From: Candidatus Omnitrophota bacterium
GTDB taxonomy: Bacteria > Omnitrophota > Gorgyraeia > Zapsychrales > JANLHA01
Length of the DNA: 33,278 bases
Reading direction: 5' to 3'
Assembly (NCBI GenBank): GCA_023143685.1
Contig: JAGLHE010000168.1
Span: 1 to 33,278 of the forward strand
The notes under the pieces were generated by a model, which saw nothing but the letters and a program-made list of their open reading frames with translations, made no database searches and was not told the origin of the DNA. Each line of letters opens with the position of its first letter. Within the stretch, counting starts at the first letter, position 1. The position numbers were made by a program, and so were the translations under genes. This document shows positions 690 to 24,854 of this stretch, in pieces.

Positions 690-779
690 TGATTCTTGAC
701 GAAAAGGCACGGCCACGAATAGCGGCCACGCAAAACTATAGGGTCCTGAAATTAAGGATAGCCAGTTACCGACGAATCA
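690..779 (+). ncRNA. Cyclic-di-GMP-I (GEMM-I) riboswitch upstream of the tubulin-like gene
   Basis: The GEMM-I landmarks appear in the right order: 'GACGAAAAGGCA', a short P2 hairpin (GGCC at 711-714 with GGCC at 724-727), the near-invariant 'ACGCAAA' joint (728-734), a P3 arm 'CTATAGGGTCCT...AGGATAGCCAG', and the 3' P1 strand 'GTTACC' (765-770). The common CC/GG closing pair of P3 is replaced by CT/AG, a compensatory change. An outer stem TGATTC/GAATCA (690-695 with 774-779) closes the element. One mismatch is seen in P1 (C708 against A768). The aptamer lies between a good promoter and an intrinsic terminator that starts 19 nt after it, the usual transcriptional design for this class. Recognition is from memory of the consensus; covariance-model scoring was not possible. 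Confidence 0.82.
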
Positions 780-22450: not shown

Positions 22451-24490
22451 CTATTTAAACTCCTCATCCACTTGTCGTTCGATACTACGCTCGATAAAAT
22501 TCGGTATGCGGGCACGGATTCGTTCTTTGGTCCAGTTCGGAAGCCAGAGGAAGTTCATCGTTCCCATCGGACCGGAAAGCTGAAAATCAAAGTCCAGAAA
22601 CGGCACGTCCTTTTTAAAGAAATTAAGAATAGGCTTAAACTCTTTCGCGGTTTCAAGCAGTCCGCGGTTCAATGACATCGAGATTATGCTCGAGGCCATA
22701 TCATTATTTTTGATATAAAAGTCGCCGGAAATTTTAACATCTTCAGCTTTAAAATCAATGTTATATATCCCGGCGCGGCCGGGTTCAATAATAAACTTGG
22801 TTTTGGTGTTATGAAAATAAACGTCCAGAAGTGAGTGCAGGCCGAACGTATCCGACATCCACTTAAAGAAATCAAAGTTTTTCAGATGTCCATTCCGGAT
22901 GTCAATGTCGCCTCTCAGGTCAAATTGAGGATAGCTCCGGAATTCAAGATTGCTGTTTAGCCGGCCATGTACTTTTGAAAAGTGTACCAGGATCTCTTTA
23001 AGTTTATTGGCATTCAAGTCATCAAGTCCGGCCTTCGCCATAAACCGGAAGGGCAAATCGGTCGTATCGATCAGGAGCTTGCCGTTAACCTTGCCTTCGT
23101 AGGCCGTGGCGCTTACGTCGATTTCTTTGATATCCGAAGAATTAAAATTTGAAACCGCATGCAGGTCGCTCACCGATACTGTGTGTTTATTGCCGTTAAT
23201 GATCCAGAGTGCTCGTCCTTTTTTGGACTCAATTTTCAAATGCGGATAATTGAAAAAATCAAAAATAAAATCATCAGCCGTAATGTCCACCGTAGTGAGC
23301 GTGCCCATAGATGTGGTGTTGTCGATAAATTGTAGTTTAAGTCCGCTGTCGACATGAAAAGCGTCATTCTCAAGTTTACCGGATATTTTAAAATCTGTTT
23401 GTTTTAGGTCTCCCATCCCTTTGTCTTTCAAAAAGGCAGGATAAAAGACTGTCTTCAGGTCGAATGTAGGAGGATCTGATAAAGTAATGTTGCCCCGGAG
23501 CGTTACCGGCGCGTTATTGAATCTCACGTCAAAACGTGTAATGGCGATATTCGGGAGCGCCGCCTTGATCACACAGTCGAGGTCCGTAAAATAAAAGTTG
23601 CAGTGGGCTAGTTCGTTGACCGGGGCCTTGCCGCCTTTGAGTGTACGCAGAAAAAATTTAACCCGATCGATAATGTTGAGCGGTTGAACGGTTTTTGTCG
23701 GTTTGGCGTGTGTCTCAGTGGTGTTTGCGAAACTGAAGCCTTTAAGGTAGAGTTGGTCGCCTTCAATCTGTCCCCAGAATTTTGAATACAGGCTCGCACC
23801 GCTTAAAATAATTGAATCAAGAAAGAAGGCCTCTTCGCTCCACCGGCTTCTTAGCTCATACGTGAGGAACGGCTTTTTTTCAGGGTTCTTTTTTTTGTTT
23901 GCCAGATGTTCTTCGTTCTCCACATCCAGTGTGCCCGAAATTTTTACATTATCTCCTTGTATGGTGAACACAAAATCCACATCAAGGTGGTCGGGTCCAT
24001 AATTGTTATCGATGAGCTTAATGACAGACTCACTGAACGTGATTTCAACATCGGCTTTCGGTATTTTCTTGAGCGTGTCCAGGAGAACTATAAAATTTTC
24101 TCTGATAAATTGACAAAAATTCTGCCACCGTAAATAAGGGGCATCGACCAGGATTTCTGTGATACAGATTTCTTTTTTAAAGATCAAGCGGTTTATGCAG
24201 AACTTTGCTTTAATAGAAGGGAAGTGGATGACGTTAAGTGTTGGGCCTGTCTTGGGAGCTATCGCGATTTCTTTAATTGTTACCGTGTTTGGGAATGAAT
24301 AGGTCACTTTTCCAATCGACAGTTGATATGTAAGCGCGTCACTTGCGGTTTTGCTCGCGGTATCTTTGGTTTTTGAAAGCAACACATTGACGGTCAGCGT
24401 GATACTTATCCATACAAAAAGGACAATGGCGCATATAATAAATGCCGTCTTTTTATGGTCATGCATCAACTTTCGAATCGTAGGCATCAT
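22451..24490 (-). CDS. AsmA-like / DUF748-type envelope protein
   Basis: The preferred start at 24490 gives 679 aa. The track start at 24619 would place a terminator hairpin inside the coding region, whereas 'GCAAGGGA' lies ten bases before the ATG at 24490. One N-terminal transmembrane helix (AFIICAIVLFVWISITLTVNVLL) anchors a long periplasmic beta-rich body with repeated strand patterns (..LKGFSFANTT.., ..FDLRGDIDIRNGHLKNF.., ..FDFQLSGPMGTMNFLWLPNW..), typical of the AsmA/DUF748 superfamily linked to lipid transport and outer-membrane assembly. Convergent with moaA. Its leader contains a GEMM-I riboswitch, so c-di-GMP probably controls its expression. Confidence 0.82.
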   Translation of the reverse strand: MMPTIRKLMHDHKKTAFIICAIVLFVWISITLTVNVLLSKTKDTASKTASDALTYQLSIGKVTYSFPNTVTIKEIAIAPKTGPTLNVIHFPSIKAKFCINRLIFKKEICITEILVDAPYLRWQNFCQFIRENFIVLLDTLKKIPKADVEITFSESVIKLIDNNYGPDHLDVDFVFTIQGDNVKISGTLDVENEEHLANKKKNPEKKPFLTYELRSRWSEEAFFLDSIILSGASLYSKFWGQIEGDQLYLKGFSFANTTETHAKPTKTVQPLNIIDRVKFFLRTLKGGKAPVNELAHCNFYFTDLDCVIKAALPNIAITRFDVRFNNAPVTLRGNITLSDPPTFDLKTVFYPAFLKDKGMGDLKQTDFKISGKLENDAFHVDSGLKLQFIDNTTSMGTLTTVDITADDFIFDFFNYPHLKIESKKGRALWIINGNKHTVSVSDLHAVSNFNSSDIKEIDVSATAYEGKVNGKLLIDTTDLPFRFMAKAGLDDLNANKLKEILVHFSKVHGRLNSNLEFRSYPQFDLRGDIDIRNGHLKNFDFFKWMSDTFGLHSLLDVYFHNTKTKFIIEPGRAGIYNIDFKAEDVKISGDFYIKNNDMASSIISMSLNRGLLETAKEFKPILNFFKKDVPFLDFDFQLSGPMGTMNFLWLPNWTKERIRARIPNFIERSIERQVDEEFK

Positions 24491-24510: not shown

Positions 24511-24550
24511 AAAATAGAAAACCCATTCTCTCTCTCGAAAGAATGGGTTT
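24511..24550 (-). terminator. Leader terminator before the AsmA-like gene (riboswitch expression platform)
   Basis: On the minus strand AAACCCATTC and GAATGGGTTT form a 10-bp stem, followed by TCTATTTT. It lies between the aptamer and the RBS. Confidence 0.75.
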
Positions 24551-24663: not shown

Positions 24664-24687
24664 TAAATGAAGTGCAACTTCGCTTTT

Positions 24688-24821
24688 GGCAACCCAGCCA
24701 CCGTTACCAGATTTTCTGGTATTAGGCCTGTTGGCTTTGCCGATGGCAGTTGTTTATGTGATTTCTCAAGGATGAGGCGCCATCGCCCGTTAGGGGTCCT
24801 GTTCTTTCGAAACAGTTTGCC
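24688..24821 (-). ncRNA. Cyclic-di-GMP-I (GEMM-I) riboswitch with an inserted stem
   Basis: Read on the minus strand: P1 'GGCAAAC' (24815-24821) pairs with 'GGTTGCC' (3' end at 24688); P2 is CTGTT...ACAG capped by a GAAA tetraloop (24799-24815), a hallmark of the class; then 'GGAC'; later 'GCAAAGCC' (24733-24740), P3 with AGCCA/TGGCT, 'CCTAA' and an ACCAGA/TCTGGT hairpin, ending 'GGCTGGGTTGCC'. Normally GGGAC runs straight into GCAAAGCC. Here 55 nt (24741-24795) are inserted, containing a perfect 7-bp stem CGATGGC/GCCATCG. The terminator downstream completes the regulatory design. Confidence 0.8.
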
Positions 24822-24854
24822 TTTATCAATAGCACTGCTTTATTTCCCAATTAA

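Follow-up and report, generated by a model that had tools for sequence, protein, structure and literature searches.

A c-di-GMP-I riboswitch with two flush hairpins inserted in its P2 arm, an architecture widespread in Omnitrophota

The RNA described here is probably an ordinary c-di-GMP-I riboswitch with an unchanged ligand site, to which two flush hairpins have been added as a peripheral domain on the P2 arm, between C44 and G45 (Vc2 numbering). It is encoded on the minus strand of the window, the whole stretch of 33,278 nucleotides that was analysed (contig C77 of a draft Candidatus Omnitrophota genome of 2.55 Mb). The c-di-GMP-I aptamer (GEMM-I; type RNA Vc2, PDB 3IRW) is among the best studied, and the nucleotides on its pocket side are treated as uninterruptible. 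A whole phylum nevertheless puts, repeatedly, exactly two helices beside this pocket and leaves the ligand contacts untouched. The two-hairpin insert is a widespread Omnitrophota architecture and not a one-off. Apparently this variant is undescribed so far: no description of it was found in the literature searched, the coverage of which was partial. Its most surprising feature is that there are two flush hairpins or none.

The Rfam scan recognized two c-di-GMP-I aptamers in the window. The one at 24831-24685 (-) reached 41.8 bits with RF01051 (E 4.6e-5), above the gathering score of 35. Its alignment had the 5' block and the 3' half intact, and skipped 75 nt of sequence versus 19 in the model. 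By every conserved residue tested the RNA is of the c-di-GMP-I class, with one departure, the interrupted junction. The basal P2 pairs G21-C46 and C22-G45 were both present, the P2 tip was a GNRA tetraloop (GAAA), and CCUAAU...GGUAACGG occurred within P3, the helix in which this class has its tetraloop receptor. From the interhelical pair C44-G83, of which the C44 side was looked at, C44 was present. The initial annotation had located all conserved blocks on the minus strand, including the GAAA tetraloop and the P1 pairing; a letter-by-letter reading agrees, and the distal P1 pairing AGUGC/GCACU can form (24836-24832 with 24675-24671, -). The folding of the aptamer region had a z of -2.66. A covariance search in which the insertion was allowed pointed the same way: the R1 model, trained on nine sequences with hand-delimited arms and with the window's sequence excluded, scored the window RNA with 66.2 bits (E 4.7e-20).

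Table 1 Features of the insert-bearing riboswitch and of its downstream region in the window.
Feature	Position	Strand	Basis
c-di-GMP-I (GEMM-I) aptamer, including the insert	24685..24831	-	RF01051 41.8 bits; R1 66.2 bits at 24685-24835
5' block GGCAAA (G20, G21, C22, AAA)	24816..24821	-	sequence letters
P2 hairpin CUGUUUC-GAAA-GAACAG, GAAA tetraloop, one bulged U	24799..24815	-	sequence and alignment
GAC, last letter C44 (interhelical pair)	24796..24798	-	sequence
Inserted hairpin 1, CCC-UAAC-GGG	24786..24795	-	free fold; position and flush geometry shared by relatives
Inserted hairpin 2, perfect CGAUGGC/GCCAUCG 7-bp stem, 31-nt loop	24741..24785	-	free fold; position and flush geometry shared by relatives
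GCAAAGCC (G45, C46, contact residue A47), start of P3	24733..24740	-	sequence
C92 (ligand contact) and C93	24688..24689	-	alignment
Intrinsic terminator, 14-bp stem, -19.8 kcal/mol, with U-rich tail; likely expression platform	24519..24550	-	sequence and fold
Downstream gene, DUF748/AsmA-like protein, 679 aa	22451..24490	-	ORF; Pfam matches

The insert is exactly 55 nt long (24795-24741, -). It splits the conserved junction, as the initial annotation had stated, and the uninterrupted GAC-GCAAAGC of the Rfam consensus is thereby absent from the window RNA, with no conserved residue removed. Two other parts of that annotation needed revision. The insert had been placed between P2 and P3. In the Rfam structure, the basal P2 pairs are G21-C46 and C22-G45; beyond them come a 3x3 internal loop and the tetraloop-capped stem. 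The insert comes after GAC, the internal-loop triplet, and before G45 of the basal pair G45-C22, and thus it splits the 3' strand of P2, not the P2/P3 joint. It had also been read as one stem. The perfect CGAUGGC/GCCAUCG pairing stood, but free folding gave two flush hairpins instead of a single stem, 10 nt and 45 nt long, without a linker and with hairpin 2 abutting G45 directly. This two-hairpin fold was obtained both from the insert alone (z -2.6) and from folding of the aptamer. In the window, hairpin 1 has 3 bp only.

Compared with c-di-GMP-I (RF01051), the window RNA shares the basal P2 pairs, the GNRA tetraloop, the GAC/GCAAAGC junction, P3, the residues G20, A47 and C92, and the place upstream of genes with a terminator. 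It differs by the two flush hairpins at C44/G45, where the model has no positions and scores via a local skip. The c-di-GMP-I-GGC model (RF03167) was the best-scoring one for many relatives, while the window RNA fits RF01051 better. This model too has no insert at C44/G45, and the insert-bearing matches listed for it fell short of the gathering score of 59. Current covariance models recover the insert-bearing RNAs at reduced scores, and therefore these RNAs may be undercounted.

The analysed genome had about ten GEMM-I aptamers. Among the others listed for it, no insert at C44/G45 was found, and some had long P3 loops. A GEMM-I aptamer with an insert at the same point was located about 1 kb upstream of a homologue of the downstream gene (33% identity) in G004, a genome from a different genus of the family. 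This insert had a small hairpin and after it a stem of 7 bp that was flush with GCAAAGC, and its sequence differed from that of the window insert. Homologues of the downstream gene in G029 and G040 were likewise preceded by an insert-bearing GEMM-I aptamer, and the aptamer upstream of the homologue in G033 was uninterrupted. Leaders of related genes, for which an uninterrupted aptamer had been considered, thus are of both kinds. By DNA similarity no orthologous leader was found in the relatives, the best being a 37-nt match.

A structure-blind pattern search in 81 genomes of the order retrieved eleven GEMM-I sequences with an insert at C44/G45. In the same 81 genomes R1 gave 377 GEMM-I matches, and among the matches listed some 75 had an insert. 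Further insert-bearing RNAs were detected with R1 over many Omnitrophota families, from at least two classes. The hairpin sequences were mostly unrelated between these RNAs. Other GEMM-I RNAs with an insert at the same site therefore amount to dozens across Omnitrophota and to three in a second phylum, and c-di-GMP riboswitches are heavily used in these uncultured bacteria.

Other GEMM-I arrangements were also observed in Omnitrophota. A variant with two hairpins in the 5' side of P2 was found in the same order (L008 1500-1619 (-), in the analysed genome, L065 and L070), and also in L105, L108, L132, L138 and L147. Its hairpins have a partly conserved sequence, GCCAGGCAGUGUGGC, and occur alone or combined with the C44/G45 insert. 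G047 encoded three tandem GEMM-I aptamers (L066/L082 58-147, 271-407 and 523-660, +), two with the insert and one, with A20, without it.

The second phylum is that of a Desulfobacteraceae genome. GEMM-I matches were found there in 81 of 297 genomes, nearly all without an insert. Three RNAs (L205-L207) had a two-hairpin insert at C44/G45, with C21-G46 and C22-G45 as basal pairs. This rules out a restriction to Omnitrophota: the C44/G45 site is used at least rarely outside this phylum, by independent gain or transfer. Two other candidates from the same phylum, L229 387-715 (-) and L230 430-599 (+), were tandem aptamers with C21-G46 and not inserts, and two pattern matches outside Omnitrophota (Pelagimonas, Desulfobacteraceae) were due to chance.

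The two-hairpin rule was examined by alignment and by folding. MAFFT misaligned the inserts when given raw sequences, and a hand-delimited, N-padded alignment was used instead. In the nine sequences of the R1 training alignment, whose hand-delimited arms lean towards structure, 95% of the pair cells were paired versus 71% after shuffling, and both sides changed in 24 of the 32 pairs (7/7 in hairpin 1, 6/7 in hairpin 2). Because of this leaning, the covariation in the nine sequences is supporting, not independent, evidence. When folded alone, inserts had two external stems in 85 of 90 cases and two flush stems (at most two unpaired external bases) in 81, with a median z of -4.8, a figure which is biased because the inserts were mostly found with a model containing both hairpins. 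Dinucleotide shuffles gave two stems in 38.6% and two flush stems in 2.7%. The structure-blind inserts, a smaller and less biased set, had two stems in 10 of 11. The eleventh (G031) folded into one long stem, two 9-bp hairpins being also possible.

A pattern search for short inserts (4-34 nt), meant to catch single hairpins, was run on 384 genomes and gave eight GEMM-I-like sequences. Rfam supported a c-di-GMP-I assignment for five of them (E 0.01 or better) and did not confirm the other three. The insert boundary was clear in seven, all of which had two hairpins, the shortest being 25 nt. Down to this length, no insert with a single hairpin was found in the 384 genomes. Across the insert, the pair 22-45 was C22-G45 in 54, U22-A45 in 16 and U22-G45 in one of 71 insert-bearing RNAs, showing that the two halves of the split aptamer covary.

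With respect to geometry, the two added helices would form a four-way-like junction: C44 would be continued by hairpin 1, and hairpin 2 would lead directly into G45. Such a junction would keep both ends of the insert adjacent, and we propose that this is the reason for the rule of two hairpins or none. The RNA is a test case for junction geometry, that is, why two and never one, and C44/G45 is a natural insertion site for engineered sensors.

The residues G20, A47 and C92 have been named as c-di-GMP contacts, and an interhelical pair has also been described (PMC4744006). All three residues are kept in the window RNA (G20 at 24821). Among the 71 insert-bearing RNAs, G20 was found in 67, A47 in 69, C92 in 67 and C44 in 70, and 35 RNAs without the insert were alike (G20 31/35, A47 34/35, C92 34/35). 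With the flanking pairs and the contacts kept, the RNA is expected to adopt its usual fold around c-di-GMP. The initial annotation had offered two possibilities, a pocket tolerating a fourth helix or an RNA with a different ligand, a different affinity or a further input. The first is supported, and extends to two helices and to the whole phylum, with the ligand-contact residues intact.

That the insert changes the ligand, for example to cGAMP or another dinucleotide, is very improbable. The insert lies only two nucleotides from A47, the residue stacking between the bases of the ligand, and four insert-bearing RNAs lack G20 (two have A, one C and one a gap). However, the window RNA and nearly all the other insert-bearing RNAs have the three contact residues, at rates like those of insert-free RNAs, and eight GGDEF domains are encoded in the analysed genome. 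Within GEMM-I, A20 means a preference for cGAMP and G20 for c-di-GMP. GEMM-Ib, the 3',3'-cGAMP riboswitch of Geobacter, has the same overall fold and is defined by A20, whereas the window RNA has a G at this position. A20 was present also in RNAs without the insert, and is therefore not linked to it. In Omnitrophota, GEMM-I RNAs with A20 were L143 5200-5332 (-), L118 1397-1486 (-), L082 58-147 (+) and L004.

An origin from mobile DNA would be another explanation: a palindrome pair (REPIN-like) would have inserted itself into the riboswitch, leaving an RNA that is decaying or a merely tolerated copy. Indeed, about 15-20 relatives have a hairpin 2 that nearly matches the reverse complement of hairpin 1, and isolated 42-nt halves are scattered elsewhere in the genomes, e.g., G052:C22:3519-3561 at 100%. 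In this subset the 42-nt unit occurs at dispersed sites, alone or paired, as REP/REPIN elements do. In contrast, the window insert is single copy in its genome, a 381-nt query matching only itself, and a mobile repeat as its source was rejected, though it holds for the subset. Further, unrelated inserts share one phosphodiester bond, and the pair 22-45 still covaries across them, which favours selection for a functional aptamer. That the insertion point is fixed suggests that the RNA fold, and not a DNA target, sets the positions open to hairpins. We consider a decaying or merely tolerated insertion improbable. In the subset, the inverted hairpin pair is made by a REP-like 42-nt palindrome, CCCUGCUUCGCUC...GAGCUUCGCAGGG, which is present in many Omnitrophota genomes. 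Inserts made from it were L097, L110, L112, L113, L116, L117, L129, L140-L142, L144 and L146.

The two-hairpin domain could also serve as a second input: a module that senses a protein, an RNA or a conformation and modulates the control by c-di-GMP, e.g., by alternating between a two-hairpin form and a single long hairpin. The architecture persists throughout the phylum although the sequences are unrelated. Some members show complementarity between the 5' arm of the first hairpin and the 3' arm of the second, and 5 of 90 inserts folded into one long stem. This cross-arm pairing is, however, confined to a subset and absent in the window. No sequence or loop motif was common to all members, and the hairpins had no shared sequence resembling a second aptamer. 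Complementarity between the loops was at chance level (2.34 vs 2.32, with 215 of 500 permutations as high). A kissing of the two apical loops, suggested by eye in G045 and G031, was dropped on these statistics. A second input is thus unlikely. A wider proposal makes the two flush hairpins at C44/G45, which are free in sequence, a conserved regulatory part of the Omnitrophota c-di-GMP-I riboswitches. This junction module would either adjust ligand affinity or the kinetics of folding, or sense another signal through a change between two hairpins and one long one; the proposal is put forward only tentatively and as rather doubtful. The preferred reading remains an ordinary c-di-GMP-I riboswitch with a peripheral two-hairpin domain, placed at a junction that is permissive for it.

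The terminator starts 134 nt past the aptamer, between it and the DUF748/AsmA-like gene at 24490. The Pfam matches of the downstream protein (DUF748 2.9e-8, AsmA 5.6e-7) were just below or below the Pfam cut-off. A similar terminator was found within 200 nt at 37 of the loci examined, one of the 37 being without an insert. The aptamer probably governs the intrinsic terminator ahead of the gene. A 6-bp complementarity exists in the window between UGGGUU of the aptamer 3' strand and AACCCA of the terminator 5' arm, and the two may pair as an antiterminator. If so, c-di-GMP would turn the gene off. Over the 37 loci, the longest complementarity between aptamer and terminator had a mean of 4.27, versus 3.96 +/- 0.15 with the arms permuted, a weak excess of antiterminator pairing. 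As this excess is only about two SD, an off switch is what we infer.

The genes downstream of the insert-bearing RNAs often encoded pilin-like N-methylation motifs, subtilases, NHL repeats and other surface proteins, which suits control by c-di-GMP. The terminators after L081, L083, L084, L094, L116, L119, L129 and L133 had in common CCUAUUC/CCCAUUC ... GAAUAGG/GAAUGGG followed by a U-run, and the window terminator had it too. The second c-di-GMP-I aptamer of the window (696-773, +) was weak, with 36.9 bits and a poorly paired P2; a TubZ/tubulin-like gene (999-2261) follows it at a distance of about 225 nt.
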